64,000 nucleotides of DNA, from NCBI RefSeq assembly GCF_012396235.1, contig NZ_JAAXPA010000038.1, forward strand, positions 1-64,000. Reading direction: 5' to 3'. Below the pieces are notes generated by a model, which saw nothing but the letters and a program-made list of their open reading frames with translations, did not search any database and had not been told where the DNA came from. Position numbers and translations under genes: made by a program. Shown here one piece after another: positions 7,160-24,041 of the stretch (within the stretch, counting starts at the first letter, position 1; every line of letters starts with the position of its first letter). Origin of the DNA: Rhodococcus opacus (lineage in GTDB: Bacteria > Actinomycetota > Actinomycetes > Mycobacteriales > Mycobacteriaceae).

Positions 7160-7162
7160 GGC

Positions 7163-8584: not shown

Positions 8585-8614
8585 CGCGAACCCCCTCGTG
8601 TCTGCTGGTCCGGA

Positions 8615-9223
8615 TCAGCGTGTCACGTCGAGTGCATCGACATCGACGCCTGCCGCCGGAAGCAGGTGATAGAAAGCACGTTCGCAGAGATCGATCATGT
8701 CCGTGCGGTCCATGGTCGGCTCGTCGAGCCACGACAGCACGACCTCTTCCATGAACGCCTGCCAGCCCGAGATCGCAGCCTCGAGCGCGGGTGTCGTCGG
8801 CACCCCGAACTCCGCCAGCGACGCACCTATCCAGCGGGTGAAGGTGTGCCGCATGCCGCGGTAGATCTGCCGCATCCGCTCGTCACCGCTACCGGCCATC
8901 CGCATGACCGCCAGGTAGATGGTGGGGTGCTCGATCACCGCGTCCGCGAATGTTTCGACGCCGGCCCGGAGCTGCCCGGACACGGGGAGCGTCGCGTCGG
9001 GTGTCATCCGCCGTTGCAGTTCGGAGGCCGAGGCCTCGAGGACGGCGTTGCGAAAACCCTGCTTGTTCTTGAAGTAGTGGAACAGCAGGGGCGGGGAGAC
9101 GCCCGCCTCGGCCGCCACCTGGTCCATCGACAGATCGTCGAACGGCACCGTCTCGAGAAGCCGGACGGCCACGTCGAGGATCTGCGCGCGCCGATCTTCG
9201 GGAGAGCGGGGTGCGGCGGCCAC
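8615..9223 (-). CDS. TetR family transcriptional regulator
   Basis: A 202-residue TetR protein. The N-terminal helix-turn-helix is MDQVAAEAGVSPPLLFHYF with KNKQGFRNAVL after it; the C-terminal part (VETFADAVIEHPTIYLAVMRMA, TRWIGASLAEFGV) is a typical ligand-binding bundle. It is divergent from the amidohydrolase gene at 9323, and a 21-bp palindrome lies between them, so it most likely represses that operon and perhaps itself. The reductase remnant lies downstream on the same strand. Confidence 0.9.
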   Translation of the reverse strand: MAAAPRSPEDRRAQILDVAVRLLETVPFDDLSMDQVAAEAGVSPPLLFHYFKNKQGFRNAVLEASASELQRRMTPDATLPVSGQLRAGVETFADAVIEHPTIYLAVMRMAGSGDERMRQIYRGMRHTFTRWIGASLAEFGVPTTPALEAAISGWQAFMEEVVLSWLDEPTMDRTDMIDLCERAFYHLLPAAGVDVDALDVTR

Positions 9224-9255
9224 CCCTGCACTCTATTGACGAACCCTCGAGGCGT

Positions 9256-9288
9256 CCATTGACTTTTACTCAATGGCATACGTAACCT
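9256..9288 (+). promoter_or_regulatory. Amidohydrolase promoter with overlapping TetR operator
   Basis: A perfect 7-bp inverted repeat CCATTGA-N7-TCAATGG (9256-9276) overlaps a plausible promoter: -35 TTGACT at 9260-9265, 17-bp spacer, -10 TAACCT at 9283-9288. It lies midway between the divergent TetR gene (start 9223) and the amidohydrolase gene (start 9323). Binding there would block the -35. Confidence 0.65.
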
Positions 9289-9322
9289 CGGGTAACACAT
9301 ACCGAGTGTGAGGAGCGCAACT

Positions 9323-11110
9323 ATGTCGGATTTCGATGTCGTCGTCAATGGTGGGCTGTGGTTCGACGGAACCGGATCCGCGCCCCGGCGCCGCAATCTC
9401 GGCATCCGCGACGGCGTCGTCGTCCGCGCATCGATCCGTCCGCTGCCCGTCGGGCCCGACACCGAGATCATCGATGCGGGAGGCAAATGGGTGGTCCCCG
9501 GATTCGTCGACGTGCACACCCACTACGACGCCGAGGTGCTCGTCAGCCCCGGGCTGCCGGAGTCGGTGCGACACGGCGTGACCACCGTCGTCCTCGGAAA
9601 CTGCTCCCTGTCCACCGTGTACTCGACGCCGCGTGAATGCGCCGACCTGTTCAGCCGGGTCGAGGCCGTACCACACGACTCCGTGCTCAGGATCCTGGAC
9701 GAGAACAAGATCTGGCAGAGCCCGGCGGAGTACGTCGAGGCACTCGAATCGCTGCCGCTCGGCCCCAATATCGCCGGTTTCATCGGGCACTCCGACATCC
9801 GCACCCACGTGCTCGGCCTCGGCCGGGGCACCGACAAGCGGACCAAGCCGAGCACCCGCGAACTCGAGCGGATGGGCGCGATGCTCACCGAGGCCGTGGA
9901 CGCGGGCTTCCTCGGCCTGTCCTCGATGACCAATGCGCTCGACAAGATCGACGGCGACGAATACCGTTCGCGCTCATTGCCGTCCACGTATGCGCGGTGG
10001 AAGGAGTTCCGCTTCCTCAACCGCATCCTGCGCGACCGCGGCAAGATCCTGCAGAGCGCGCCGACGATCAACCTGCACCCCAACATCGCGGGATTCTTCG
10101 CGGAGAGTTCGGGTCTGGGGCGACGCAAGCCCCTCAAGACGTCGCTGCTGTCCGCCGCGGACTCGAAGGCCTACCCGCCGATCGTGTACTTCATGCTCGC
10201 CGCGGCGCCGCTGCTCAACCGCTTCGCCAAGACCGACTTCAAGTGGCAGCACCTCCCGGTGCCGTTCACCGTCTACGCGGACGGCATCGACCTCGTGGTG
10301 TTCGAGGAGTTCGGTGCCGGCGCGGCGGCACTGCATCTCAAGGACCAGGTGGAACGAAACGCCCTGCTGCAGGACGAGTCCTACCGACGCCGGTTCCGCA
10401 AGGATTACGACAACAAGTTCAGCCCCCGCATCTGGCACCGCAATTTCTACGACGCGGTGATCGTCGGGTGCCCCGACGAGGCGCTGATCGGCAAGACGTT
10501 CGGCGCGGTGGGCGACCTGCGTGGCGTGCACCCGGTGGACGCATATCTCGATCTCGTCGTGAAGTACGGCACCGACCTGCGGTGGCGGACCACCATCGCC
10601 AACCATCGTCCCAAGTTCGCGAAGAAGCTCGCGGCCAGTTCCGGCGTGCAGATGGGATTCGGCGACGCGGGTGCGCACCTGCGCAACATGGCGTTCTACA
10701 ACTATCCGATCCGGTTGCTGAAGAAGGTCAAGGACGCGCAATCCGACCGCACACCGTTCCTGTCCGTCGAGCGTGCCGTCCACCGGCTGACGGGCGAGCT
10801 GGCCGACTGGTACGGCATCGATGCCGGCCACCTGCGCGAAGGGGACCGCGCCGACCTCGTCGTCATCGATCCGGCGGGTCTCGACGCGACCGTGGACGGA
10901 TTGTTCGAGGCCGAGGTCCCCGAGTACGGCGGTCTGCGCCGGATGGTGAACCGAAGCGACGCCGCGGCGGTCGCGACGGTGATCAACGGCAGGCTCGTCT
11001 ATCGCGACGGGGAGTTCACCGGCGGGTTCGGCGTCACCAAGACGGGACGGTTCCTCCGCGCCGGTGCGTCGGCCGCAGACCACAGCGAGCGTGAGACGGC
11101 CGTCCGATGA
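9323..11110 (+). CDS. N-acyl-D-amino-acid deacylase-like amidohydrolase
   Basis: A 595-residue amidohydrolase (Amidohydro_3, D-aminoacylase/dihydroorotase type). It has the first metal motif FVDVHTHYDAE (H65, H67), a middle GHSDIRTHVLG, and near the C-terminus GFGDAGAHLRNMAFYNYP, where the aspartate is the usual catalytic or metal residue, followed by DLVVIDP and a short ending strand. Family members hydrolyse N-acyl-D-amino acids or related amides. The ATG at 9323 has AGGAG seven bases upstream; an earlier in-frame start at 9308 lacks this. It overlaps the next gene by four bases. Regulated probably by the divergent TetR. The real substrate is unknown. Confidence 0.85.
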   Translation: MSDFDVVVNGGLWFDGTGSAPRRRNLGIRDGVVVRASIRPLPVGPDTEIIDAGGKWVVPGFVDVHTHYDAEVLVSPGLPESVRHGVTTVVLGNCSLSTVYSTPRECADLFSRVEAVPHDSVLRILDENKIWQSPAEYVEALESLPLGPNIAGFIGHSDIRTHVLGLGRGTDKRTKPSTRELERMGAMLTEAVDAGFLGLSSMTNALDKIDGDEYRSRSLPSTYARWKEFRFLNRILRDRGKILQSAPTINLHPNIAGFFAESSGLGRRKPLKTSLLSAADSKAYPPIVYFMLAAAPLLNRFAKTDFKWQHLPVPFTVYADGIDLVVFEEFGAGAAALHLKDQVERNALLQDESYRRRFRKDYDNKFSPRIWHRNFYDAVIVGCPDEALIGKTFGAVGDLRGVHPVDAYLDLVVKYGTDLRWRTTIANHRPKFAKKLAASSGVQMGFGDAGAHLRNMAFYNYPIRLLKKVKDAQSDRTPFLSVERAVHRLTGELADWYGIDAGHLREGDRADLVVIDPAGLDATVDGLFEAEVPEYGGLRRMVNRSDAAAVATVINGRLVYRDGEFTGGFGVTKTGRFLRAGASAADHSERETAVR

Positions 11111-11955
11111 GCGGCATGGAGCGGATCCGCACGTTCACCCGGGACGGGCTCGTGTTCGACGTTCGCGACGAGGGTCCGATCGACGGCACGCCGGTGGTGC
11201 TGTTGCACGGATTTCCGCAGGACTCGCGGTCGTGGGACGAACTGGCACCGTTGCTGCACCGGCGGGGATTTCGCACTCTCGCGCCGGACCAGCGCGGCTA
11301 TTCGGCCGGGGCCCGGCCCCGCGCCCGCTGGGCGTACCGCGGCTCGGAACTGGTCGCGGACGTCGTCGCGCTCATCGACCAGGCGGGCCTCGGGCCGGCG
11401 CATGTCGTCGGGCACGACTGGGGCGCTGTGGTGGCCTGGGGAATCGCGGCGGAACGGCCCGACCGGGTTCGCACGCTCACTGCGCTCTCGGTGCCGCATC
11501 CGGCGGCGTTCGTGCGGGCGATGCTCACCAGTCGCCAGATCCTGAAGTCCTGGTACATGTTCGCGTTCCAGCTGCCGTGGATTCCGGAGCGGCTGATCAC
11601 CCCGGACGGTTACGGCTACCGGGCACTGCTCGCCAGCGGCCAGTCTGCGGACCGGGCGAAGCGCGACCTCGAACCCATGCGCGATCGGACGCGGGCCCGG
11701 GGCGCTCTGAACTGGTATCGGGCCATGCCGTTCACCGCACCCCGTTCGGCCTCCCGGAAGGTCCGGGTGCCCACGCTCTTCGTGTGGAGCGACGGCGACT
11801 CGGCGATCGGGCCGGTTGGTCCCGCGCTGACCTCACGCTTCGTCGACGGCCCGTACACCTACGAGGTGTTCCGCGGTGTGAGCCACTGGATTCCGGACGA
11901 GGCGGCCGAGCGCGTCGACGAACTACTCGGCAGCCACCTGCTCGATCAGTCGTGA
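11107..11955 (+). CDS. Alpha/beta hydrolase, epoxide-hydrolase-like
   Basis: A 282-residue alpha/beta hydrolase. The oxyanion motif LLHGFPQDSRSW is at 33-43, the nucleophile is an aspartate, D104 in VVGHDWGA, and the catalytic histidine is H260 in GVSHWIPDE. An aspartate nucleophile in HDWG together with the cap sequences FQLPWIPE and LNWYRAMP points to the epoxide hydrolase branch rather than a serine esterase. It would open an epoxide to a diol by way of an alkyl-enzyme ester. It is translationally coupled to the amidohydrolase gene. Its 3' end overlaps a small leftward gene by 33 bases. Confidence 0.87.
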   Translation: MSGMERIRTFTRDGLVFDVRDEGPIDGTPVVLLHGFPQDSRSWDELAPLLHRRGFRTLAPDQRGYSAGARPRARWAYRGSELVADVVALIDQAGLGPAHVVGHDWGAVVAWGIAAERPDRVRTLTALSVPHPAAFVRAMLTSRQILKSWYMFAFQLPWIPERLITPDGYGYRALLASGQSADRAKRDLEPMRDRTRARGALNWYRAMPFTAPRSASRKVRVPTLFVWSDGDSAIGPVGPALTSRFVDGPYTYEVFRGVSHWIPDEAAERVDELLGSHLLDQS

Positions 11956-12192
11956 CGCCGATCGGTCCGTCCGCGCCACGTCGCCGGTGACCAAGCGGTC
12001 GAGGAGGATGGCCCGCAGCCCGGACACCGCGACCGTCGCATTCTCGCGGGCGTCCTGAGTGGAGAACCCACATCGGATCATCGCGTCGGCGACGGCGTCG
12101 ATCAGCGTGTGGATGGCCGAGGTGGCGAAGTCGGCGAACGGGCGTTCGGTGAGGCACTGAGCGGCGCGGACGTCGATCACGTCAACGCCCAC
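11923..12192 (-). pseudogene. Remnant of a TetR regulator (C-terminal domain only)
   Basis: An 89-residue frame beginning at a GTG with GGAG just upstream. The segment TLIDAVADAMIRCGFSTQDA and the ending GLRAILLDRLVTGDVARTDR resemble the last two or three helices of TetR ligand-binding domains. No helix-turn-helix can be found upstream in any frame of the leftward strand, so this is either a decayed TetR gene or a small stand-alone protein of that fold. It overlaps the end of the epoxide hydrolase gene, which fits decay. Confidence 0.45.
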
Positions 12193-12312
12193 ACTCCATC
12201 GGCGCGGTCGGAGCCCTCGAGGCGATCCTCACCGTCGGACGGTACTGATCGGCTGTCCGCTGTCGGTGAACGCCGCCGCGTCCGGGTGCGTCGTCTGGAA
12301 GACTCCGAAGGT

Positions 12313-12660
12313 ATGGAAGCTCAGCGCAGACTGACGCTGGTGACGGCCGCTCCCGAGCAATCGCGGGAGGAGCCGCTGGTGCGTGAGCTGTACGGGCGAG
12401 TGCTCCGCGAGGCCCGCCGGGACCAGGATCGGAGTCTCGAGGACGTCGCCGCCGCCGTCGGCATGTCGAAGCAGTACCTCTCCGAGATCGAACGTGGCAA
12501 GAAGGAGCCGTCGTCGGAAATGCTGCGCGCGGTGTGTGGCGCGCTCGGTCTGCCGGTGGAACACCTGCTGTTCCGGTCCGGGCGCCGGCTCGGCGCGGCG
12601 AACCGGAACCCGGCGACCAGGAGCCTGAACCGGCAGGTGCCCACGCTGCTCGCCGCCTAG
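12313..12660 (+). CDS. Cro/CI-type regulator of the ClgR/PopR kind
   Basis: A 115-residue XRE-family protein. The DNA-binding domain (about 28-90) reads GRVLREARRDQDRSLEDVA, AVGMSKQYLSEIERGKKEPS and SEMLRAVCGALGLPVEHLLF, closest to the ClgR/PopR regulators of Clp proteases in actinobacteria. The protein ends in Leu-Leu-Ala-Ala. In Streptomyces, PopR and ClgR are known to be degraded by ClpP in a way that depends on C-terminal alanines. It faces the tandem clpP genes tail to tail with only nine bases between stops, and a PopR-like box lies upstream of those genes. An in-frame GTG at 12286 is an alternative start. Function is inferred from these three facts together. Confidence 0.72.
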   Translation: MEAQRRLTLVTAAPEQSREEPLVRELYGRVLREARRDQDRSLEDVAAAVGMSKQYLSEIERGKKEPSSEMLRAVCGALGLPVEHLLFRSGRRLGAANRNPATRSLNRQVPTLLAA

Positions 12661-14171: not shown

Positions 14172-14840
14172 ATGCACGTTCTGTTCGTCTGTAGCGGGAA
14201 CGTCTGCCGCTCACCGATCGCAGAGCGGCTGACGCACGCGTACGCGCTTGCCCACGGTCTGCCGCACCTCACCGCGGAGAGCGCCGGTGTCCGAGCCCTC
14301 GTGGGCTTTCCGATCGAACCCGTCGCCGCCCGCGTCATCGAAGGGCTCGGCGCGAGCGCCGACGGGTTCCGAGCGCGTCGCCTGCGGCCCGAGATGATCA
14401 AACGCGCCGACCTCGTCCTCGCGATGACCGAGCAGATCCGGGACCGTTCGATGGAACTGCTCCTCGGGACGAGCCACTGTACGTTCACGCTTCGCGAGGC
14501 TCGCCGGATCGCCACCGACACCGGTGCCCGCACCGTCGCCGAACTCGCCGTCGCCCGAAGGGAGTACGGCGAGATCGACGATGCGAACATCAGCGACCCC
14601 GTCGGCCTCGGCGGGGCGGCGTTCGCGCAGGTGGGGGATCGGATCGCCGCCGAACTGATGCCGCTGCTCGACGCACTCGATCTCGGCAGCGGCACGAAAC
14701 GGGAACCCGAGACCGAGCCCGAACCCGAGCCCGGACCGCGGCCGTCTCCGGTCGTCCACCTGCCGCTGTCGCCCAGGCCGCTGATCGCGGCGCGGGCGGC
14801 GTCGTCGATCCTCGACTATCCCGTCAGCTGGTCGCGCTGA
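14172..14840 (+). CDS. Low-molecular-weight protein tyrosine phosphatase-like protein
   Basis: A 222-residue protein whose first 175 residues are a low-molecular-weight phosphatase domain. The P-loop C7-S-G-N-V-C-R13-S is the CX5R(S/T) signature, and the general-acid aspartate is in ISDPVGLG. It would remove phosphate from tyrosine residues in the cytosol; actinobacterial relatives act on host or envelope proteins. Beyond the domain is an unusual 45-residue tail rich in Glu-Pro pairs (KREPETEPEPEPGPRP) and then a hydrophobic end. The gene's last 17 bases overlap the convergent sulfotransferase gene. Confidence 0.82.
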   Translation: MHVLFVCSGNVCRSPIAERLTHAYALAHGLPHLTAESAGVRALVGFPIEPVAARVIEGLGASADGFRARRLRPEMIKRADLVLAMTEQIRDRSMELLLGTSHCTFTLREARRIATDTGARTVAELAVARREYGEIDDANISDPVGLGGAAFAQVGDRIAAELMPLLDALDLGSGTKREPETEPEPEPGPRPSPVVHLPLSPRPLIAARAASSILDYPVSWSR

Positions 14841-15981
14841 ACTGATAGTTGGCGAATCTCTCGTCCACCTGCTCGGCCGTGAGCCCGAATTCCTCGAGCG
14901 TGTACTTGTGGGAGGGGCGGCGGTCGCCGCTGCGACTTTCGGCGTGCATCGCCTCCATCGCCGACTGGGCCGAGGCGCTGAGTTCGAGCCCGAAGTGCGT
15001 GTAGACCAATTCGACGGTGCCGAGCGGATCGGCCACGAAATCGTGGTAGTCGACGTCGATGAACTGAGCGGGATCGTGCCGGGTGCGCGCGGCGGTGAAC
15101 TGCTCGAGCCCCCGGGCCCACAGCTCGAGCTGGCTCTCACCGATGACGCTGCCCCGGAACTTCTCCGACCACCCTTCCGTCGCCTGTTCCGCCAGGCTGC
15201 ACACCGACGGGACGATCGTGCGCGGCGGCCGGTGGGTCTGGATGATCAGGGCGTCCGGATAGACGGCGAGCAACTCGTTGAGCGCGAACAGGTGGCTGGG
15301 GTTCTTCAGCACCCAGCGGCGGTCCCGATCGGGAAGCCCGATCAGCTGCAGGTTCTTCTTGTGCCGCTGATAGGCGTTCGTCCAGTCCTGGCCCTCGAGC
15401 CAGCGGGAATATGTCGGGAGAGACGCCAGGCACTCGTAGGAGATCGACTTGAACGTCTGCCGCAGCAGTTGCCAGCACTCCTCGACTTCGCTCGCCGACA
15501 TGTAGTGCACGCCCATGAATTCGGGGCGTTCGATGTGGTGGCGGCTGAAACCCTCCTCGATCTTCTGGAACACGGGATTCGATTCCCAGGTCTCGCGCGG
15601 CGGACGGGGTTGGGGCATCTCGGTCAGCCACATCTCCAGGCCCTGATGCGACGGATCCGCGGTGAGTAGCCGGTGCAGCGCCGTCGTCCCCGTGCGGGGA
15701 AGCCCGGTGACGAAGATCGGCCGCTCGATCCGCACGTCCGCGTGCTCGGGGTTCTGCTTCCACGCTGCCTCGCTCAGCAGCCGCGCCACCAGGGCGCCGC
15801 GGAGGAACACCCGCGACACCTTGCTGCCGAGCGGGGTCAGCTGCTCGTCGACGTGGTACGAGTCCAGCAGGACGCCGAGGGCCTCGGTGTAGTCGTCCAC
15901 GCCGAAGTCGGTGAGGCCGGTCAGGCGGGTGGCCGAGGCGTGAAGGTCCTCGACCGTGCCGACGGTGGTGCGCTCGCTCAT
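14824..15981 (-). CDS. PAPS-dependent sulfotransferase
   Basis: A 385-residue sulfotransferase (Sulfotransfer_3 type). The PAPS 5'-phosphosulfate loop is RPIFVTGLPRTGTTALHRLL (residues 87-106), and the 3'-phosphate-binding region is in the later segment LIIQTHRPPRTIVPSVCSL. It transfers sulfate from PAPS to a hydroxyl, leaving PAP. The acceptor is unknown. It is last in the leftward operon DUF1214-SDR-sulfotransferase, 19 bases after the SDR stop. The genes for making PAPS and removing PAP lie on the other side of the shared IclR gene, which supports PAPS use. Relatives are common in mycobacterial lipid and steroid gene groups. Confidence 0.88.
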   Translation of the reverse strand: MSERTTVGTVEDLHASATRLTGLTDFGVDDYTEALGVLLDSYHVDEQLTPLGSKVSRVFLRGALVARLLSEAAWKQNPEHADVRIERPIFVTGLPRTGTTALHRLLTADPSHQGLEMWLTEMPQPRPPRETWESNPVFQKIEEGFSRHHIERPEFMGVHYMSASEVEECWQLLRQTFKSISYECLASLPTYSRWLEGQDWTNAYQRHKKNLQLIGLPDRDRRWVLKNPSHLFALNELLAVYPDALIIQTHRPPRTIVPSVCSLAEQATEGWSEKFRGSVIGESQLELWARGLEQFTAARTRHDPAQFIDVDYHDFVADPLGTVELVYTHFGLELSASAQSAMEAMHAESRSGDRRPSHKYTLEEFGLTAEQVDERFANYQFSATS

Positions 15982-16000
15982 GATGCTCCGGTTCTCGTCG

Positions 16001-16789
16001 CTAGTGATGGAATTCGCCGCAGTTGACGTCGAGGCACTGGCCGGTCACGGCGCTCGCCAACGGTGAGGCCAGGAAGATCACGGTGTCGGCCACTTCCTCG
16101 GTCGTGGGGAGCCTCTTCAGGTCGGTGTTCGCGGCGGTGTGTTCGTAGATCTGCTCGACGGTCGTCCCGTACTTCTCGGCCTGGTGCGTGAAGTACTGCT
16201 TCAGCGTGTCTCCCCAGATATAGCCGGGAGCAACGGAATTGACACGGATTCCCTGAGGTCCCAATTCCGTGGCGAGCGACTGCGATGTCGCGAGCAGGGC
16301 GGATTTGGCCATCTTGTAGCTGCCGTACCGCTCCTGGGAGTGTCGGAGCACCATCGAGTTGATGTTCACCACCGCTCCGTTCGATTCGGCGAGTGCGGGG
16401 GTGAACAGCTGGGTCAGCCGCAGCGCCCCGAGCACGGTCAGCTCGAAACTGCTGCGAATGTGGTCGAATTCCGTGCGGGCCAGCGGTTTCATCGACGGAA
16501 CCGAGAACGCGTTGTTGATCAGCACGTCGACCTTGCCGTACGCGTCGACGGCCGCGGACACCAGATTCTCGGCTGATGCCTGGTCCGTGATGTCGGTCGG
16601 GACGGTCACGGCGCGTCGGCCGACAGCGATGATCTCCTTGGCCACCTCGTCGAGACGCGACGCGGTGCGGGCGGCCAGCACCACGTCCGCGCCGGCGTCG
16701 GCGCAGCGGACGGCGAGGGTCCGGCCCAGGGCCGGACCGACGCCGGAGATGACGACCACCTTGTCCTGCAGGAGTTGCGGAGTGGTCAT
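16001..16789 (-). CDS. Short-chain dehydrogenase/reductase
   Basis: A 262-residue classical SDR. The cofactor loop is VISGVGPALGRTLA (variant of TGxxxGxG), the structural motif is LINNAF, and the active site is the serine in NINSMVL with Y-x3-K in GSYKMAKSAL. The motif with VLAARTAS after strand 2 suggests NADP(H). It would oxidise an alcohol or reduce a ketone. The ATG at 16789 follows the DUF1214 stop by five bases, so the two are co-transcribed and probably coupled. Being between a DUF1214 protein and a sulfotransferase suggests work on the same alcohol-bearing substrate. Confidence 0.9.
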   Translation of the reverse strand: MTTPQLLQDKVVVISGVGPALGRTLAVRCADAGADVVLAARTASRLDEVAKEIIAVGRRAVTVPTDITDQASAENLVSAAVDAYGKVDVLINNAFSVPSMKPLARTEFDHIRSSFELTVLGALRLTQLFTPALAESNGAVVNINSMVLRHSQERYGSYKMAKSALLATSQSLATELGPQGIRVNSVAPGYIWGDTLKQYFTHQAEKYGTTVEQIYEHTAANTDLKRLPTTEEVADTVIFLASPLASAVTGQCLDVNCGEFHH

Positions 16790-16794
16790 GGCGC

Positions 16795-17961
16795 TCACCC
16801 CAGCATCCGGTCGGCGACCGCGGCCTGGCGTGCGGCGATGCGTTCGGCGAAGTCCTCGGGCGAGATCTTGTTGGAGTCGTGGAACGGCAGCGTCCGATGG
16901 ATCTCGTCGAACTTCACGACCTCGATGCGGGGACCGTCGCCCGGGGTCAGTTCGCGGGAGACGCGCTGCCAGCGGAACTGCAGGTAGCCGCGGAGGTGCC
17001 CGATGGTGGCGATCCAGTTGGCGACGCCCGGATTGCGCTCGCTGACGACGAGCCGGATGTGGTCGTCGGGATCCACCTGCGACTGGGCGACGTTCAGCGA
17101 GGTCTGGTGGTTGACGTAGTCGAGGGAGATGTACCACATGCTGCCCAGCTGAAAACCCTGGTAGGGCACGTCGGCTTTCGGGACGGTGATGACGATGGCC
17201 TCGTCCTCGGCGAGTTCGTAATGCCCGACGGACGAGTACTGCGTGGCGAGGCCGCCCGGCGTCAGCCGCGGTTCGGTCATCGTGTTCACCGGCAGGTTCA
17301 GATAGAACCACTCCGGGAACTGCAGCCACGTCTTCACCCGGGAGACCAGGGCTGTGCCCGCGCGGGCGTACCGCTTCTCGACGGCTTCCCGCGTGAGCGG
17401 ACCCGGAGCCGTACCCGTCGTATCCGCCCTGGCGATGCGGATGGTGCCGCGCTGCTGACTCCAGTCGCTGTACACCTCCCGGACCACCAGCTGCGACGAA
17501 CCCGGCGCGAGGGTGAAGTAGTTGCGACTGCCGGCGCTCTCGCCGGGCCCGAACCGCACCTCGAACGAACCGTCGGGGGCGATGTCGATCTCCCGGTCGT
17601 CGAACGCGGTGACGCTGCCGGGAACGTGTGCGGCCGTGTAGTTTCCGCTCAGCACCTGGAAGCTCAGGTCCGCCGTGGTGCCGCGCCGCCCGGTCACCAC
17701 GTATTCGACGTCGTCGTTGATCCGCGCGCCGAAGTACAGGGTGTCGGGGTTGTCGAGGCCCATCTTCATGTGCGGGCCGGTGCCCGAGATGAACGTCGGG
17801 TGCGACCGTTCGGTGGCCCAGGCGGCGTGCGTCGTGGCGAGAATGCCGCCGGCGAGGTACTGGTAGCCCTCCAGCAGATCCTGTTCGGTGCGGATGTGGG
17901 GGGCGCTCTCGATCAGTTTCTCGGCCTCGGCCATGGCGTCGGCGAATGGGTCGGTCAGCAC
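16795..17961 (-). CDS. DUF1214 domain protein
   Basis: A 388-residue protein of the DUF1214 family, with no signal peptide or membrane segment seen. Recognisable stretches are MKMGLDNPDTLYFGARIND, GNYTAAHVPGSVTAFDDRE and, in the C-terminal half, LPVNTMTEPRLTPGG and GSMWYISLDYVNHQTSLN. The family is common in mycobacteria and rhodococci, often in lipid or steroid gene groups, but its biochemical role is not established. It is the first gene of the operon driven by the KstR-box promoter at 18025-18054. Confidence 0.8.
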   Translation of the reverse strand: MLTDPFADAMAEAEKLIESAPHIRTEQDLLEGYQYLAGGILATTHAAWATERSHPTFISGTGPHMKMGLDNPDTLYFGARINDDVEYVVTGRRGTTADLSFQVLSGNYTAAHVPGSVTAFDDREIDIAPDGSFEVRFGPGESAGSRNYFTLAPGSSQLVVREVYSDWSQQRGTIRIARADTTGTAPGPLTREAVEKRYARAGTALVSRVKTWLQFPEWFYLNLPVNTMTEPRLTPGGLATQYSSVGHYELAEDEAIVITVPKADVPYQGFQLGSMWYISLDYVNHQTSLNVAQSQVDPDDHIRLVVSERNPGVANWIATIGHLRGYLQFRWQRVSRELTPGDGPRIEVVKFDEIHRTLPFHDSNKISPEDFAERIAARQAAVADRMLG

Positions 17962-17983
17962 ACCGTGCTCCTCACGAGGGGGT

Positions 17984-17999
17984 GGTACAAATATGTACC
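17984..17999. promoter_or_regulatory. Palindromic operator A (GGTACA-N4-TGTACC)
   Basis: GGTACAAATATGTACC, perfect 6-bp arms around AATA, 22 bases upstream of the DUF1214 start and 25 bases downstream of the -10 of its promoter. An almost identical palindrome, GGTCCAAATATGGACC, lies at the matching place in front of cysD. The IclR protein encoded next door is the obvious candidate to bind both. Confidence 0.7.
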
Positions 18000-18024
18000 T
18001 GCGTGGTAGAACATTGATGAACCG

Positions 18025-18054
18025 ACAATAGAACGTGTTCTAAGGAGTGGTCAA
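18025..18054 (-). promoter_or_regulatory. Promoter of the DUF1214-SDR-sulfotransferase operon with KstR-type box
   Basis: On the leftward strand: -35 TTGACC (18054-18049), 18-bp spacer, -10 TATTGT (18030-18025). The 14-bp perfect palindrome TAGAACGTGTTCTA (18029-18042) sits over the spacer and -10 and fits the KstR consensus TNNAACNNGTTNNA of the actinobacterial cholesterol regulator. The -35 overlaps the IclR start codon. A partial half-site TAGAACA lies at 18007-18013. Confidence 0.7.
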
Positions 18055-18977
18055 TGGGACACGAGGACGAGACGCCCGACAGGGCGCAGGGCCGACGGTC
18101 GCCGCCCACCGAGCGTGTGGTGCAGGTGCTCGACTTCCTGGTGGCGCGCAAGGGGCACCGCTTCGGTCTGTCGGAGCTGGCCCGGCAACTCGACATCAGC
18201 AAGCCCACCTGCCTGGGGATCCTCACCGAACTGGCCCGCGGCGGCTATCTCGTCCGGGATCCCGCCACGAAGACGTACGGCCTCGGGCCCGCCCTCATCG
18301 CGGCCGGCCGCGCGGCGCAGCAAGGATTCGCGGCCGGGCCGGTGGCGCGCACGCATCTCGCCGTGCTCAGTGAGGAGTTCCGGACCACGTGCACGGCGTC
18401 GGCGGTGGTCGGCGACCGCATCGCCGTCCTGGAGCTGACGAGTCCGCCCGGTGTGCGGGCGGCCGCCAAGGTGGGGGAGATGTACCCGTTCGCGCCGCCC
18501 GTCGGCCTGATGTACGTGCTGTGGGACGGCGACGACGCGCTGCAGTCGTGGTTGCGGCGGGAGCCGACCCTGCCGGTGCGCCTCGACCGCGACCGGTTGC
18601 GCACCGTGGTGGACGAGTGCTCCCGCACCGGGTATCTCGTGGAGACGCTCACTCCGGTCGGCCAGCGCCTGCACACGCTCATGGCCGGGGTCGCCGCGCA
18701 CGACCTGCCGCCGGAGTTGCGCGACGTGCTCGGTGAGATGGTGTCCAGCCTCGGGGAGCGGGTGTACCTGGACGCCGAACACGCGGACCCCGCCGCGCCG
18801 CATCCCGTCAGCCTCATCGCCGCGCCGACGTACGACGCCGAGGGGCATCAGGCCATGGTCCTGACGCTCTATGTGGGCACCGAACTCGCGCCGTCCGACA
18901 TCGCGCGGCGGGGCAAGGCTCTCGCCGCGGCCGCGGACGCGATCACGGTGGAGGTGGGCGGCCGCCGGCCACGGTGA
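18054..18977 (+). CDS. IclR family transcriptional regulator
   Basis: A 307-residue IclR protein. The N-terminal winged helix is TERVVQVLDFLVARKGHRFG followed by LSELARQLDISKPTCLGIL; the rest is the effector-binding domain, ending YDAEGHQAMVLTLYVGTEL. Start at ATG 18054 with TAAGGAGTGG just upstream. It stands between the leftward sulfotransferase operon and the rightward cysD operon. The two near-identical palindromes at 17984 and 19046 flank it and are its probable sites. The effector is unknown; a CoA thioester or steroid-like acid would fit the surroundings but is a guess. Confidence 0.9.
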   Translation: MGHEDETPDRAQGRRSPPTERVVQVLDFLVARKGHRFGLSELARQLDISKPTCLGILTELARGGYLVRDPATKTYGLGPALIAAGRAAQQGFAAGPVARTHLAVLSEEFRTTCTASAVVGDRIAVLELTSPPGVRAAAKVGEMYPFAPPVGLMYVLWDGDDALQSWLRREPTLPVRLDRDRLRTVVDECSRTGYLVETLTPVGQRLHTLMAGVAAHDLPPELRDVLGEMVSSLGERVYLDAEHADPAAPHPVSLIAAPTYDAEGHQAMVLTLYVGTELAPSDIARRGKALAAAADAITVEVGGRRPR

Positions 18978-18987
18978 CGAACGGGCA

Positions 18988-19017
18988 TTGACCGCAATCT
19001 GAAACACGTTCTATTCT
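18988..19017 (+). promoter_or_regulatory. Promoter of the cysD operon with KstR-type box
   Basis: -35 TTGACC at 18988-18993, 18-bp spacer, -10 TATTCT at 19012-19017. The box TGAAACACGTTCTA at 19000-19013 fits TNNAACNNGTTNNA and matches the 18029 palindrome at 12 of 14 places. The whole element is a near copy of the leftward promoter at 18025-18054. Confidence 0.68.
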
Positions 19018-19043
19018 CGGAGGTGCAATCATTTTCGACCGAG

Positions 19044-19063
19044 CTGGTCCAAATATGGACCAG
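19044..19063. promoter_or_regulatory. Palindromic operator B (CTGGTCCA-N4-TGGACCAG)
   Basis: Perfect 8-bp arms around AATA. The inner 16 bases differ from operator A at 17984 by one symmetric pair. It lies 34 bases upstream of the cysD start and 28 bases past the -10 by its inner core, so binding would block the elongating polymerase. Confidence 0.72.
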
Positions 19064-19097
19064 TTGCCGGTAAGGCACTCGCGACGAGGAGTCGCCC

Positions 19098-20015
19098 ATG
19101 ACCGCACCGCCCGTGTACGAGTTGTCCCACCTCGGCGCACTCGAAGCCGAAGCCGTGCACATCTTCCGAGAAGTGGCCGCCACGTTCGAGCGTCCGGTTC
19201 TGCTGTTCTCCGGCGGCAAGGACTCGGTGGTCATGCTCCACGTGGCCGCCAAGGCGTTCTGGCCCGCACCCCTCCCGTTCGCCGTCATGCACGTCGACAC
19301 CGGCCACAACTTCGACGAGGTCATCGAGTTCCGCGACCGGACCGTCGACCGCCTCGACCTGCGGATGGTGGTGTCCAGCGTGCAGGACGACATCGACGCA
19401 GGCCGCGTCAGCGAGGAGACGGGTCCGCGGGCCAGCCGCAACCGGCTCCAGACCGCGGCGCTGCTGCGCGGGATCCGAGACAACGGTTTCGACGCCATCT
19501 TCGGCGGCGCCCGCCGCGACGAGGAGAAGGCCCGCGCGAAGGAGCGGGTGTTCAGCTTCCGCGACGAGTTCGGGCAGTGGGATCCGCGGGCGCAACGCCC
19601 GGAGCTGTGGAGCCTCTACAACGGCAGGCACCGCAAGGGGGAGCACATCCGGGTGTTCCCGCTGTCCAACTGGACCGAACTCGACATCTGGCAGTACATC
19701 AGCGAGGAGAAGATCGAACTGCCGCCCCTGTACTACGCGCACCGCAGGGAGGTTGTGCCCCGCGACGGAATGCTGTTGGCGCACACCCGGTTCCTGACCC
19801 TGCTCCCCGGAGACGAGCCGTACGAGGCCCTCGTCCGATTCCGGACCGTCGGCGACGCCACGTGCACGGGCTGCGTCGAGTCGTCGGCAACCACCGCCGA
19901 GGCCGTGGTCACCGAGGTCGCCGCGAGCAGGCTGACCGAGCGCGGCGCTACCCGGGCCGACGACCGGATCTCCGAGGCCGGCATGGAAGACCGCAAGAAG
20001 GAAGGGTACTTCTGA
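19098..20015 (+). CDS. cysD: Sulfate adenylyltransferase, small subunit
   Basis: A 305-residue CysD, the catalytic PP-loop ATPase subunit of ATP sulfurylase that makes APS from ATP and sulfate. The PP-loop is FSGGKDSVVML (S38-G-G-K-D-S43). Other family marks are MHVDTGHNFDEVIEFRD, FGGARRDEEKARAKERVFS and the ending MEDRKKEGYF. It is the first gene of the rightward operon, and its stop overlaps the cysNC start by one base (TGATG). Linked to a sulfotransferase rather than to APS reductase genes, it probably supplies PAPS for sulfation, not cysteine synthesis. Confidence 0.95.
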   Translation: MTAPPVYELSHLGALEAEAVHIFREVAATFERPVLLFSGGKDSVVMLHVAAKAFWPAPLPFAVMHVDTGHNFDEVIEFRDRTVDRLDLRMVVSSVQDDIDAGRVSEETGPRASRNRLQTAALLRGIRDNGFDAIFGGARRDEEKARAKERVFSFRDEFGQWDPRAQRPELWSLYNGRHRKGEHIRVFPLSNWTELDIWQYISEEKIELPPLYYAHRREVVPRDGMLLAHTRFLTLLPGDEPYEALVRFRTVGDATCTGCVESSATTAEAVVTEVAASRLTERGATRADDRISEAGMEDRKKEGYF

Positions 20016-21865
20016 TGCCGCAGCTACTCCGGGTCGCGACCGCGGGCAGCGTCGACGACGGCAAGTCCACCCTGATCGGCCGACTGCTGTACGACTCGAA
20101 GGCGATCTTCGAGGATCAGCTCGAGGCGGTCGAACGCACCAGCCGCGAACGGGGCGACGAGCACGCCGACCTGGCGCTGCTCACCGACGGTCTGCGCGCC
20201 GAACGCGAGCAGGGCATCACCATCGATGTCGCGCACCGCTACTTCGCCACACCGCACCGCAAGTTCATCATCGCGGACACGCCGGGACACGAGCAGTACA
20301 CCCGGAACATGGTGACCGGCGCGTCGACCGCCGACCTGGCACTGATTCTCGTCGACGCCCGCAAGGGGATCCTCGAGCAGACGCGCCGCCACGCGTTCAT
20401 CGCCAGCCTCCTCGGAATTCCGCACCTGGTTCTGTGCGTCAACAAGATGGATCTCGTCGGGTGGTCCGAGGACCGGTTCGAGGAGATCAAGGAGGAGTTC
20501 CGGCAGTTCGCGATCAAACTCGAGGTCCACGACCTCACGTTCATCCCGGTGTCGGCACTGCGCGGCGACAACATCGCGCAACGCACCGTCAACATGCCCT
20601 GGTACGAGGGAGGGTCGCTGCTGCACTACCTCGAGCAGGTGCACGTGGCCTCCGACCGCAACCTCATCGACGCGCGGTTCCCGGTGCAGTACGTGGTCCG
20701 GCCGCAGCGCCGGACCGATTCCGCGCTGCACGATTTCCGCGGGTACGCAGGCACGGTCGCCAGCGGCGTGTTCAAGCCGGGCGACGAGGTGGTGGCACTG
20801 CCGTCCGGATTCACCTCCACCGTCAGCGCCATCTGGGGTCCCGGCGGAACCCGTCTCGACGAGGCGTTCGCACCGTCGGCGGTGTGCGTGCAGCTCGCCG
20901 ACCAACTGGACGTGAGCCGCGGAGATGTGCTGTGCCGCCCCAACAACCGTCCGCTCGTCGGGCAGGAACTCGACGCGATGGTCTGCTGGTTCAGCGAACA
21001 GTCCTCGCTGACACCGGATGCGCGGTACACGCTGCTGCACACCACCCGCGCCACCAGGGCGTCCGTCGCGCGGCTCGACTACCGCCTCGACGTGAACACC
21101 CTGCACCGCGACGAGTCCGCACAGTCGCTCTCGCTCAACGAGATCGGCCGTATCCAGTTGAGGACGTCGCAGCCGCTGATGTTCGACCCGTACCGCCGCA
21201 ACCACGTGACGGGCAGTTTCATCCTCGTCGACGAGTCCACCCACAACACCGTCGCCGCCGGCATGATCACCGGGCCGACACTGTCGCGATCCAAGGTGGT
21301 GTGGCACGCCGCGGCCGTCTCGCGGGACGAGCGGGCGACACGGGGTCGCACGGTGTGGCTGACCGGACTGTCGGCGTCGGGAAAGTCGACGGTCGCGGTG
21401 GAACTCGAGCGGCGCCTGGTCGCGGCCGGGGTGCCCGCCTACCGGCTGGACGGCGACAACCTGCGTCACGGTCTCAACGCCGACCTCGGTTTCAGTGCGG
21501 AGGACCGCGCCGAGAACGTGCGCCGCGTCGGCGCCGTGGCGCAACTGCTCGCCGACTCCGGGGTGGTCGCGATCGCGTCGCTGATCAGCCCGTACCGCGC
21601 CGACCGGGACCGCGTCCGGGAGCAGCACCGGGCCGCCGGGCTCGACTTCGTCGAGGTGTTCGTCGACACGCCGGTGGAACAGTGCGAAGCGCGGGACCCC
21701 AAGGGCATGTACGCGAAAGCCCGCGCGGGGGAGATCACCGGATTCACCGGGGTCGACGACCCGTACGAGGCCCCGGAGAACGCCGAACTCGTCCTCCGGC
21801 CCGGAGACGGCACGCCGACCGAACAAGCCGAGAGAATTATGGAATTGTTGAGACGTGATCACTGA
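20015..21865 (+). CDS. cysNC: Bifunctional ATP sulfurylase large subunit / APS kinase
   Basis: A 616-residue fusion. Residues 1 to about 430 are CysN, an EF-Tu-like GTPase: G1 AGSVDDGKSTL (10-20), G3 DTPGHEQYTRNM, G4 NKMD. Residues from about 445 are CysC, APS kinase, with P-loop GLSASGKST (around 450), RLDGDNLRHGLN, the lid region VFVDTPVEQCEARDPKG and the ending of the family. Together with CysD it turns sulfate, ATP and GTP into PAPS, the sulfotransferase donor. The start ATG is at the overlap with cysD; the 3' end overlaps the next gene by 11 bases. Confidence 0.95.
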   Translation: MPQLLRVATAGSVDDGKSTLIGRLLYDSKAIFEDQLEAVERTSRERGDEHADLALLTDGLRAEREQGITIDVAHRYFATPHRKFIIADTPGHEQYTRNMVTGASTADLALILVDARKGILEQTRRHAFIASLLGIPHLVLCVNKMDLVGWSEDRFEEIKEEFRQFAIKLEVHDLTFIPVSALRGDNIAQRTVNMPWYEGGSLLHYLEQVHVASDRNLIDARFPVQYVVRPQRRTDSALHDFRGYAGTVASGVFKPGDEVVALPSGFTSTVSAIWGPGGTRLDEAFAPSAVCVQLADQLDVSRGDVLCRPNNRPLVGQELDAMVCWFSEQSSLTPDARYTLLHTTRATRASVARLDYRLDVNTLHRDESAQSLSLNEIGRIQLRTSQPLMFDPYRRNHVTGSFILVDESTHNTVAAGMITGPTLSRSKVVWHAAAVSRDERATRGRTVWLTGLSASGKSTVAVELERRLVAAGVPAYRLDGDNLRHGLNADLGFSAEDRAENVRRVGAVAQLLADSGVVAIASLISPYRADRDRVREQHRAAGLDFVEVFVDTPVEQCEARDPKGMYAKARAGEITGFTGVDDPYEAPENAELVLRPGDGTPTEQAERIMELLRRDH

Positions 21866-22985
21866 CGCACGACTCGCGGCCGACATCGCCTCCGGTGCCG
21901 GTGCCCTGCTGCTGGACATCCGCACCGCGGGACTCGGATCGGCGGACGGACGGGAACTGGGCAGGCGGGGCGACGTCGCCGCCGACGCGTTCATTCTCGG
22001 CAAGCTCTCCGCGGAGCGACCCGGCGACGCGATCCTGTCCGAGGAGTCGGCCGACGACCGGTCGCGGCTGGAGAGTTCGCGGGTGTGGATCATCGACCCG
22101 CTCGACGGTTCCAAGGAGTACGGACTGCCCGGGCACTCGGACTGGGCCGTGCACGTCGCGCTGTGGGAACGCGGTCGGGGCATCACGGCGGCAGCGGTCG
22201 CGCAACCGGCGCTGGGCGCCGTGTATGCCAGTGACGACGACAGCCATGCGGTGCATACCGAACAACTCCCGGCACGACCACGGATCGTCGTATCCGCCAG
22301 CAGGCCGCCTGCCTTCGTCGACGCCGTCGCGACGGAGATCGGCGCCGAGGTCACCACCATGGGTTCGGCCGGAGCGAAGGCGATGGCGGTGCTCCGCGGA
22401 GACGTGGACGCCTACATCCACTCGGGCGGTCAGTGGGAATGGGACTCGGCCGCACCCGTCGGCGTCGCCGAGGCTGCGGGCCTGCACTGCTCGCGGATCG
22501 ACGGAACCCCGTTGGACTACAACGAATCCCACCCGTACCTGCCGGACCTCCTGATCTGCCGGCCGGAGCTGGCTCGGCCGCTGCTCGCCGCGATCGCGAC
22601 ACACGCCACCGACACGGCCGACAGCGGCCGGGTCGCGATGGCCAGGGCCTACATCGATGCACTGGTCAGCCACGACGCCACCAAGGTGCGTCTCGCGGAC
22701 AACGCCTGGCGGGTGGAGAACGGGCAGCACACGGGCGAATCGGGGGCGTTCATCCGGGACGAACTCGAAAACGGCCTGCAGTATCAGGCCATCCAGGCCG
22801 TGCGCGAACTCTCCTTCCACGAGTGGGGCGACAACGTGGTGGCCCGGTTCGTGCTCGACCTCGGGGCCACGCCCACCGAGGTGACGTCCGTCCGGATCAC
22901 GGAACATTTCGACATCCCGGCCGGGGCGATCCAGTCCGTCATGGCCATCATCGAACCGTCCGCGATCGAAAGGGAGAACCGATGA
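21855..22985 (+). CDS. CysQ-type 3'(2'),5'-bisphosphate nucleotidase with extra C-terminal domain
   Basis: A 376-residue fusion. Residues 1-245 are an inositol-monophosphatase-fold CysQ, with metal-binding SEES (62-65), VWIIDPLDGSKEY (77-89) and QWEWDSAAP (193-201). It removes the 3' phosphate of PAP left by sulfotransferases, or of PAPS. Residues about 255-370 form an added domain, from SGRVAMARAYIDALVSHDA through VARFVLDLG to FDIPAGAIQSVMAII. Its helix-then-sheet pattern looks NTF2-like; this is a guess. Ordinary CysQ proteins end near 250-270 residues. GTG start inside the cysNC end; ATGA overlap with the next gene. Confidence 0.85.
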   Translation: MITDARLAADIASGAGALLLDIRTAGLGSADGRELGRRGDVAADAFILGKLSAERPGDAILSEESADDRSRLESSRVWIIDPLDGSKEYGLPGHSDWAVHVALWERGRGITAAAVAQPALGAVYASDDDSHAVHTEQLPARPRIVVSASRPPAFVDAVATEIGAEVTTMGSAGAKAMAVLRGDVDAYIHSGGQWEWDSAAPVGVAEAAGLHCSRIDGTPLDYNESHPYLPDLLICRPELARPLLAAIATHATDTADSGRVAMARAYIDALVSHDATKVRLADNAWRVENGQHTGESGAFIRDELENGLQYQAIQAVRELSFHEWGDNVVARFVLDLGATPTEVTSVRITEHFDIPAGAIQSVMAIIEPSAIERENR

Positions 22986-23383
22986 CCCCGGATCAACTGG
23001 TCACCCAATTCTGTGCCGAGTGGATCGAGCCCGATCCGGCGAAGATCGCGGACTATTTCGCGGAAGACGCGGTCTACCACAACATTCCGATGGAACCCGT
23101 CATCGGGCGTGACGCGATCCGCGAGTTCGTCGCCGGCTTCATCGCGGCCTTCGGCGGCATCGACTTCCGGGTGCACCGGCAGGTCACCGACGGCGGGCAG
23201 AGCCCCAACGCCGAGGAATCGAGCGGCGTGGTGATGAACGAGCGGATCGACGTGTTCACGCTGAACGGCAACGTCGTCGAACTGCCCGTCGTCGGCGTCT
23301 TCGAGATCACCGACGGCAAGATCACCACCTGGCGCGACTACTTCGACATGGCACCGATCCAGGCTGCTGCCGGCGGTGGATAG
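22982..23383 (+). CDS. Limonene-1,2-epoxide hydrolase-like protein
   Basis: A 133-residue SnoaL/LEH-fold protein. Set against the Rhodococcus limonene-1,2-epoxide hydrolase, all five active-site residues are kept: Y32 and N34 in VYHNIPM, R88 and D90 in NERIDVF, and D119 in TTWRDYFD. It should therefore be a real hydrolase that opens an epoxide to a diol, or a close relative acting on a steroid or terpenoid ring. It overlaps the previous gene by four bases, so it belongs to the cysD operon. The substrate is unknown. Confidence 0.83.
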   Translation: MTPDQLVTQFCAEWIEPDPAKIADYFAEDAVYHNIPMEPVIGRDAIREFVAGFIAAFGGIDFRVHRQVTDGGQSPNAEESSGVVMNERIDVFTLNGNVVELPVVGVFEITDGKITTWRDYFDMAPIQAAAGGG

Positions 23384-23390
23384 CGGCCCG

Positions 23391-24041
23391 ATGATCGCCG
23401 TCCCGGCCGGGCAGGTCACGCTGTCGGATCGCCGAACCACCCGCAGTTGGAGCGTGGAGCTGGGTGCCTTCGAGATCGCCGTCCATCCTGTGACGCAGGG
23501 GGAGTACGCCGCGATCACCGGCGAGTGGCCGGGCACGACGCGGGGAACGCGGCTGCCGGTCGACGGAGTGTCGTGGCGGGACGCGATCCTGTTCTGCAAT
23601 GCCCTGTCGGAGCGTGCCGGGCTCGCCGCTGCCTATCGCGTGACCGGTGACGACGTCGTGTGGGACACCGTGGCCGACGGGTACCGGCTTCCGGCCGAGG
23701 CCGAATGGGAACGCGCCTGCCGGGCGGGCACCACGGGTCCGCGGTACGGCCCGCTCGACGCGATCGCGTGGTACCGCGGCAACTCCGACGGCCGGTCGCG
23801 GGAGGTGGGCGGCAAGCAGCCGAACGCATGGGGCCTGCGCGACACCCTGGGCAATGTGTGGGAGTGGTGCTGGGATCTGTACGACCCCGAGGTGTACGGC
23901 CCGTACCGGGTCCTGCGCGGCGGTGGGTGGTTCGACGAGCACTGGAGTTGCCGAGCCTCCGTGCGGAGGCGCAGTCACCCGACCTACCGCATCGACGACG
24001 TCGGATTCCGTCTCGCTCGGGGTGCATTAACCTCTGACTAA
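23391..24041 (+). CDS. FGE-sulfatase-fold protein lacking the catalytic cysteine pair
   Basis: A 216-residue protein with the fold of formylglycine-generating enzyme (SUMF1/DUF323): MIAVPAGQVTLSD at the start, HPVTQGEYAAITG, YRLPAEAEWERACRAG, NAWGLRDTLGNVWEWCWD and RGGGWFDEHWSCRASVRRRS, then GFRLARG. True FGE has two cysteines in the RGGS..C....C segment. Here the first is aspartate and only the second remains, so formylglycine formation is unlikely. Perhaps an oxygenase or a non-enzymatic relative. A GTG at 23376 overlapping the previous gene is an alternative start. It is the last gene of the cysD operon, and no sulfatase gene is in the window. Confidence 0.75.
   Translation: MIAVPAGQVTLSDRRTTRSWSVELGAFEIAVHPVTQGEYAAITGEWPGTTRGTRLPVDGVSWRDAILFCNALSERAGLAAAYRVTGDDVVWDTVADGYRLPAEAEWERACRAGTTGPRYGPLDAIAWYRGNSDGRSREVGGKQPNAWGLRDTLGNVWEWCWDLYDPEVYGPYRVLRGGGWFDEHWSCRASVRRRSHPTYRIDDVGFRLARGALTSD

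Follow-up and report, generated by a model that had tools for sequence, protein, structure and literature searches.

Comparison with known systems

In rhizobia, NodPQ, a second pair of ATP sulfurylase and adenosine 5'-phosphosulfate (APS) kinase, is kept together with the sulfotransferase NodH under a pathway regulator. Here we describe a gene island at positions 14824-24041 of a 64-kb stretch of Rhodococcus DNA (the window, on contig C42 of an 8.1 Mb draft genome of 109 contigs), in which a sulfotransferase and the supply of its co-substrate 3'-phosphoadenosine 5'-phosphosulfate (PAPS) are encoded by two divergent arms with the same two palindromes in their promoters. We consider it rather probable that the island is a sulfation module of steroid metabolism controlled by KstR and by a local IclR-family protein. 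The minus-strand arm comprises genes for the predicted sulfotransferase (STR, 14824-15981), a short-chain dehydrogenase/reductase (SDR, 16001-16789) and a protein of 388 amino acids (388-aa protein, 16795-17961). The divergent plus-strand arm encodes, in this order, the IclR-family regulator (18054-18977), CysD (19098-20015), CysNC (20015-21865), CysQ with an extra domain (21855-22985), a SnoaL/limonene epoxide hydrolase (LEH)-like protein (22982-23383) and a protein of the formylglycine-generating enzyme (FGE) fold (23376-24041), with gene ends and starts overlapping from cysD onward (at 20015, 21855-21865, 22982-22985 and 23376-23383). This gene content, with its coordinates, had been given by the original prediction, and it holds in profile matches. 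The closest named record belongs to Rhodococcus wratislaviensis, with 96% identity for the 388-aa protein and 99% for CysD and CysNC.

Like NodPQ/NodH, the island keeps a second PAPS-supply pair with a sulfotransferase; unlike the island, the rhizobial genes serve Nod-factor synthesis rather than a steroid regulon and answer to other regulators. To our knowledge, NodPQ/NodH comes with no CysQ, 388-aa protein or IclR protein. A weak match to NoeE (18.9 bits vs 500) was returned by the general profile scan, which included no search aimed at NodH or other Nod genes.

A KstR motif has been described between Rv3531c and Rv3532 of Mycobacterium tuberculosis, with binding demonstrated by electrophoretic mobility shift assay (PMC1995591). 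Rv3531c, Rv3530c and Rv3529c are listed as hypothetical protein, possible oxidoreductase and conserved hypothetical protein of the KstR regulon (PMC1995591, PMC6429209), and the passages of these papers that deal with them assign the trio no function. The mycobacterial trio is like the 388-aa/SDR/STR trio of the island in its KstR motif, and the window STR matches a solved mycobacterial chain. That chain, 2zq5, is the closest solved one, aligns with STR across its full length (E 1.9e-170) and is labelled an uncharacterized protein in the database; we take it to be Stf1, the product of Rv3529c. Judging by 2zq5, the M. tuberculosis trio is the probable counterpart of the island trio. In contrast to it, the island operon faces an IclR-cysD-cysNC-cysQ arm that has a KstR box of its own, and the two arms also have the further palindrome in common. 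The CysN2C/CysD2 Stf0 locus of strain IGTS8 also brings together CysD, CysNC and a sulfotransferase, but its enzyme is of the Stf0 type (another Pfam family), its neighbour is a sulfatase, and it was found on dibenzothiophene (PMC8557817).

KstR-type boxes and promoters

The KstR motif TNNAACNNGTTNNA occurs exactly twice in the 64 kb, at 18029-18042 (TAGAACGTGTTCTA) and 19000-19013 (TGAAACACGTTCTA), compared with a mean of 0.11 after shuffling. The two sites of this palindrome, TnnAACnnGTTnnA, thus lie one in each promoter of the island, as had been claimed earlier from the letters of the window. Both boxes fill the spacer between promoter-like -35 and -10 elements, namely TTGACC/TATTGT of the 388-aa/SDR/STR operon (18025-18054, minus strand) and TTGACC/TATTCT of the cysD operon (18988-19017, plus strand); two such promoter-like sites in 1.25 kb compare with 0.1 expected. 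KstR bound there would block both operons, since the boxes occupy the promoter spacers. The motif and its binding have been reported in mycobacteria (PMC1995591), and from that mycobacterial site we infer binding at both window boxes.

The boxes were followed through 60 loci around the 388-aa gene. These come from 59 genomes (G039 contributing two); 25 are of the same genus, and the other 35 represent 26 further genera. Within 250 bp upstream of the 388-aa gene, 46 of the 60 loci have a box, where the remaining sequence of these loci predicts 0.25. Of 46 loci with cysD, 35 have one in the 200 bp before that gene (0.16 predicted); in L088, L092 and L093, where the gap is short, a single box was counted for both genes. 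All 24 same-genus loci with CysD carry both boxes. A similar box-in-spacer layout, counted by a loose pattern with no shuffled control, was seen at the 388-aa gene in 43 of the 46 relatives that have a box there and at cysD in 30 of 35.

The whole genome holds 66 matches to the loose box pattern compared with 26 for the reversed control, so that single box matches elsewhere mean little. The genome's own kstR gene (L119:1209-1844) matches the KstR structure 5ua2 (E 1.9e-85), is preceded by a box at about 50 bp and is flanked by a FadE34-like gene and otsB (both identified by eye), a gene order as in mycobacteria (PMC1995591). The contig with kstR also bears the KshA gene, likewise with a box before it. 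Elsewhere in this genome, a perfect KstR-type box stands immediately before a 124-aa reading frame (L095:7165-7574) that by eye is SnoaL/ketosteroid-isomerase-like.

A second palindrome linked to the IclR gene

A feature beyond those of the original prediction is a palindrome of 16 bp, GGTNCANATNTGNACC, present in both leaders as GGTACAAATATGTACC (17984-17999) in that of the 388-aa/SDR/STR operon and as GGTCCAAATATGGACC (19046-19061) in that of the cysD operon. The window contains no further copy even with one mismatch, and two copies arose in 0 of 100 shuffled sequences. Across the genome, the pattern has one additional exact match (a G+C-rich variant) and its reversed control one as well. 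Where the relatives have an IclR gene, the palindrome, with up to one mismatch allowed, is present before the 388-aa gene in 41 of 44 loci and before cysD in 32 of 39; where they lack it, the counts are 0 of 16 and 0 of 8. In a set of 80 named loci that overlaps the unnamed one (L122-L201; 79 entered the count, as one lay too close to the end of its locus), the palindrome was counted in 64 of 68 with an IclR gene and 0 of 11 without.

The spacing is likewise constant: the palindrome starts 28-31 bp beyond the KstR box on the 388-aa side in 34 of 38 loci (the others at 7, 23, 24 and 24 bp) and 28-33 bp beyond it on the cysD side in all 29 loci. The IclR gene itself (HTH_IclR, 31 bits) is local to the island and divergent in 44 of 60 loci. 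The simplest reading is that the palindrome is the operator of this local IclR protein, with the island as its main or only target. Both palindromes being common to the PAPS-supply and sulfotransferase arms is the best evidence that the first arm serves the second.

Conservation of the gene set and co-occurrence with steroid degradation

Conservation as a unit was examined by searching the relatives' neighbourhoods with the window genes, so that only genes with a counterpart in the window were annotated there. On the strand of the 388-aa gene, STR lies downstream in 59 of the 60 loci and SDR in 56. On the divergent arm, CysD (17 genera) and CysNC were each found in 46 loci and CysQ in 38 (11 genera). 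A set of 80 named loci, overlapping with the 60, also shows the unit and adds Nocardia, Amycolatopsis, Mycobacteroides, Prauserella, Kibdelosporangium, Microtetraspora, Mycobacterium and other genera. The trio stands without CysD in the four Microtetraspora and the two Prauserella loci. Five loci bear the names Mycobacterium, Mycolicibacter or Mycolicibacterium; four of them (L185, L190, L196 and L197) have the trio but lack cysD, which is present in L148. Conservation as a unit, for which the original prediction had proposed to look in other rhodococci and mycobacteria, is thus borne out by the 60 loci, which span 27 genera, and by the 80 named ones. For the PAPS supply, STR and PAP removal the set stands as predicted; the LEH-like gene is confined to a small number of genera (27 of 60 loci, 3 genera), and the FGE-fold gene (3 loci, 1 genus) is not a core member. 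PTE (12 loci, 1 genus), TetR and major facilitator superfamily (MFS) genes were rejected as parts of the island, as they recur in near relatives only; for the MFS gene at 26580, matches of 50% or more are confined to these. An Rfam scan gave no match. Further along the window (31875-43587), genes for an SDR, an enoyl-CoA hydratase, an acyl-CoA dehydrogenase and an AMP-ligase, without KstR boxes, probably form another catabolic cluster.

The distribution of the 388-aa gene was compared with that of KshA_C, the steroid hydroxylase domain, in 300 genomes including the own one. A 388-aa match was accepted at E<1e-100, which excluded 9 weaker ones, and a KshA_C match at E<1e-50, which excluded 12. 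The genome tallies come partly from hand-transcribed lists, and script totals agree with the tool tallies for both searches. The 388-aa gene is present in 158 of 174 KshA-positive genomes and in 0 of 126 others, counts that ignore shared ancestry; the own genome has KshA_C matches. Box counts and this co-occurrence together place the island under KstR-type boxes in genomes with a steroid hydroxylase. APS kinase was found at E<=1e-40 in 157 of the 158 genomes with the 388-aa protein and in 91 of the 142 without it; in the single exception (G269) the locus is on a contig of 5,560 bases that ends beside cysD. Seven of the 16 KshA-positive genomes without the close gene carry a more distant relative of the 388-aa protein at E<=1e-44. 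STR adjoins it in all four of the distant-relative loci examined (L214-L217), and a KstR-type box precedes it in three (L214-L216). These three, in genomes of another family, join a distant DUF1214-like protein, STR and SDR behind the box, the close 388-aa gene being lacking.

Enzymes of the island

STR is, by its profile (206 bits in Pfam) and its nucleotide-binding motifs, a predicted PAPS sulfotransferase of the Sulfotransfer_3 family. Among 59 orthologues the P-loop is present in 58 and the second motif in 56; the motifs scanned in STR, CysD/CysNC and CysQ are those usual for these families. The adjoining SDR matches PRK07890 with 434 bits (cut-off 258).

CysD (TIGR02039, 453 bits vs cut-off 397), the predicted small subunit of ATP sulfurylase, and CysNC (PRK05506, 980 bits; APS kinase domain, 229 bits), the GTPase subunit fused to APS kinase, appear to carry all domains of a sulfate-activating complex (CysD, CysN GTPase and APS kinase). 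Their motifs are conserved in the relatives: the GTPase motif in 45/45, the kinase DGDN in 45/45, the strict kinase P-loop in 33/45 and the CysD PP-loop in 47/47. CysQ, predicted to hydrolyse 3'-phosphoadenosine 5'-phosphate (PAP), resembles CysQ of M. tuberculosis, a PAP phosphatase, over about residues 1-250 (5djf, E 4e-94, next chain E 1.3e-11; in the fold search 5djk, E 1.8e-31, 56% identity), and two of its metal-site motifs are found in 39 of 39 relatives and the third in 38. The remaining C-terminal domain of about 120 residues gave only a weak match to SnoaL_2 (E 0.088), and its relative in L078, a separate reading frame, had no match in Pfam. Among the best 50 matches listed in the fold search with the fusion, all were phosphatase-domain entries. 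Going by its predicted strand order, the tail is perhaps NTF2-like, a weak assignment.

The LEH-like protein has the NTF2 fold (SnoaL_2, 68.5 bits; LEH, 63.8 bits; LEH structures, E 3e-23). Aligned by eye with limonene epoxide hydrolases, it retains Tyr, Asn, Arg, Asp and Asp, which we take to be the LEH active site, and so appears to keep the residues of an epoxide hydrolase site. The FGE fold of the last protein, named by the original prediction as part of the set, was confirmed (PF03781, 134.5 bits). The CxxxxC pair, presumably the active-site cysteines of FGE, is absent from the window protein and from the proteins of three relatives, one of them (L049) frameshifted, and with a presence in 3 of 60 loci and a broken copy in L049 the protein was rejected as part of the system. 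The gene looks broken in L049:3300-3600, where it matches as two pieces in different frames. Away from the island, this genome has an FGE-like gene near an arylsulfatase-like gene (G000:C77:212080-215543, both by eye).

The 388-aa protein, a core member of the set, had been called a DUF1214 protein. It has no Pfam match even at E<=10, and its tie to DUF1214 (PF06742) is an indirect one. A 28%-identical paralogue matches PF06742 (33 bits vs cut-off 25), and the predicted two-domain model (predicted local distance difference test score, pLDDT, 91) resembles 6ANS, an uncharacterized Burkholderia protein (E 8e-37), and more weakly VPA0106 and VPA0735, which we take to be DUF1254/DUF1214 proteins. 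In 20 loci of DUF1214-like relatives, picked by hand from the matches rather than at random, STR was present in 13 and absent from 7.

Cysteine synthesis in the same genome

The original prediction had noted no APS or PAPS reductase in the window and had doubted that cysteine synthesis is the purpose of the island. Both points are upheld. The only PAPS_reduct-family match in the 64 kb is CysD, and the other two of the genome (CysH and CysD) lie on another contig, C37, where sulfite reductase, CysH, CysD and CysN stand together away from the island. The C37 operon is like the island in its CysD and CysN homologues; unlike the island, it has CysH (APS reductase) and sulfite reductase beside them, and its CysN, of 428 aa, has no kinase domain. 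The C37 CysH carries CCALRKVAPL, SIGCAPCTS and KTECGLH, motifs of the type described as APS-reductase signatures (PMC8557817). Since CysH has these signatures and CysN lacks a kinase, cysteine synthesis in this genome should not need PAPS. With the reductase and sulfite reductase on C37, the island does not appear to be an operon of assimilatory sulfate reduction. The island CysD is about 63% identical to the assimilatory one and stands apart from it in the tree, and its origin as a recent copy was rejected.

A second locus of sulfate activation could also serve under sulfur limitation, its KstR boxes being incidental, and a second CysD, CysNC and Stf0 have indeed been seen on dibenzothiophene in Rhodococcus qingshengii IGTS8 (PMC8557817). 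The IGTS8 locus (sulfatase, CysNC, CysD, Stf0) differs in gene order, however, and a locus of that type occurs elsewhere, away from the island, in G015 and G018, where the Stf0-linked CysD is 64-65% identical to the island CysD. Given also that conservation of the KstR box and of the second palindrome far exceeds background in both promoters, and that the cysteine route of the genome should bypass PAPS, we regard sulfur supply as a very improbable purpose.

A paralogous cassette

The analysis revealed a second cassette of similar composition, again a feature that the original prediction did not contain. An operon CysQ-CysD-CysNC-NTF2-SDR-STR-DUF1214-like is present in G022 and four other genomes (L208, L210-L213; in L208 at 5300-12456, with a TetR gene beside it). 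Identity of the G022 cassette to the island is 55% for STR, 54% for CysQ, 53% for SDR and for CysNC, 48% for CysD and 28% for the DUF1214-like protein. In midpoint-rooted trees, many forks of which are unsupported, the cassette STR falls among island STRs with weak support, whereas the cassette CysD lies at the end of a very long branch, away from the CysD proteins of the island, of the Stf0 loci and of the assimilatory operons. The island rows of the CysD tree form no single supported clade (L073 joins assimilatory and Stf0-linked rows at 81/85), 13 of its 25 inner forks are open, and the tree program flagged a risk of long-branch attraction. The cassette thus seems to have recruited its CysD separately, and, if the trees are right, the STR/SDR/DUF1214 set twice gained a PAPS supply of its own. 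As no KstR box lies near it, sulfation cassettes would exist outside steroid control as well.

The lack of a nearby box also speaks for the possibility that the island sulfates a non-steroid product (envelope lipid, quinone or signal) during growth on steroids. Mycobacterial sulfotransferases have been discussed as makers of sulfated bacterial metabolites (PMC3141025), and Rv3529c is not among the genes listed as required on cholesterol (PMC6429209). Against such a product stands the confinement of the 388-aa gene to KshA-positive genomes, and the epoxide hydrolase site kept by the LEH-like partner suggests small-molecule chemistry. No lipid-assembly gene is found among the recurring window genes, the only ones annotated in the relatives. 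On balance we judge a non-steroid product improbable.

Proposed role of the island

By the known enzymology of their families, CysD and CysNC would convert sulfate to APS and further to PAPS, STR would transfer the sulfuryl group of PAPS to a hydroxyl of a steroid-derived or co-metabolised compound, and CysQ would remove PAP. The oxidation state of the acceptor hydroxyl is probably set by SDR. The 388-aa DUF1214-like protein, joined in Rhodococcus by the LEH/NTF2-type proteins, may work on this compound too, either ahead of sulfation or following it. KstR at the spacer boxes would keep both arms blocked until steroid catabolism starts, and the IclR protein of the island, through its candidate operators in the two leaders, would probably add control by a compound of the pathway. 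The KstR boxes and the co-occurrence with KshA point to an acceptor derived from steroids. The sulfate itself may possibly be a leaving group, a soluble tag or part of the product.

Several observations weigh against this reading of the island. Sixteen of the 174 KshA-positive genomes lack a close 388-aa gene; in 14 of the 60 loci no CysD diverges from the 388-aa gene, and in 14 of the 60 the 250 bp upstream of that gene contain no box. The second palindrome is missing or poor in 3 of 44 (388-aa side) and 7 of 39 (cysD side) loci with IclR. Of five loci with the paralogous cassette, four are free of KstR boxes, and in the fifth (L211) none stands close to the operon. Rv3531c is predicted to be required on cholesterol, and Rv3530c and Rv3529c are not in the corresponding list of PMC6429209, so the sulfotransferase may be dispensable. 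Furthermore, an Stf0-type sulfotransferase of the same genome (L203 / L204:8910-9671; G000:C37:41945-42583) could use the same PAPS.

This last point also concerns the claim that the sulfotransferase has 'its own' PAPS supply, which in an exclusive sense does not survive. In G015 and G018 (L205, L206) a CysD/CysNC pair lies beside the counterpart of the Stf0 gene, and since this pair is lacking in the own genome, its Stf0 protein may share the PAPS of the island. In the draft genome the island kinase is the only one with a strong score (232 bits), the one other APS kinase match having 22.4 bits (Pfam cut-off 21.1), and the stricter apsK profile finds the island kinase only. Among 13 other island-bearing genomes of the same genus, a second APS kinase above the cut-off is found elsewhere in 10 and in none of the remaining 3. 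The island as sole sulfation system was therefore rejected, given the Stf0-type enzyme on C37 and the second APS kinase in 10 of 14 island-bearing genomes.

A dispensable sulfotransferase gene would fit detoxification or export, in which sulfation solubilises poorly degraded or toxic sterols, oxysterols or side products and is not a degradation step. The LEH-like partner would suit oxidised sterols, epoxysterols being the link between the two. No exporter is found among the widely recurring window genes, with relatives annotated for these genes only, and we consider this purpose possible and yet somewhat unlikely; its weight overlaps with that of the steroid sulfation module, of which it is a sub-case as to the enzymes and a rival as to the purpose.

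Within the steroid sulfation module, a bolder proposal is that sulfation is an activating step of actinobacterial steroid breakdown with sulfate as the leaving group, operating in mycobacteria as well by means of general PAPS. STR would sulfate a hydroxyl that is not directly oxidisable, e.g., a tertiary or hindered one, on an oxidised sterol, and elimination or substitution by the DUF1214-like protein or the NTF2-fold partners would release sulfate. The latter would be re-activated by the local CysD/CysNC in a cycle gated by KstR and by the IclR protein as sensor of an intermediate. The use of sulfate as a leaving group is known mainly from biosynthesis, and we hold this variant to be unlikely.

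Significance

The KstR site beside Rv3531c, a solved STR homologue and, in general, the pairing of PAPS supply with a sulfotransferase are already known. The tie of the trio to a PAPS supply of its own, the double-operator design and the second cassette were not seen in the literature searched. In published titles and abstract openings, a scope that leaves out most subscription journals, no link of a sulfotransferase or of a dedicated PAPS supply to the KstR regulon appeared, and a term search of PMC4810484, PMC4881515 and PMC3182942 did not find the word 'sulfotransferase'.

The trio carries KstR boxes, has no assigned step in the cited papers, and includes a gene present in most KshA-positive genomes. 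The palindromes it shares with PAPS synthesis and PAP removal propose a concrete chemistry for it, namely sulfation, and name a co-substrate that is traceable with labelled sulfate. The presence of STR in 13 of 20 loci suggests a sulfotransferase as functional partner of the DUF1214-like 388-aa family, and the predicted IclR circuit with two operators is directly testable. Since the set recurs in relatives, sulfation may be a step that has so far been overlooked in bacteria that feed on steroids. If sulfate does act as a leaving group, steroid catabolism would share a chemistry that is mainly that of biosynthesis.

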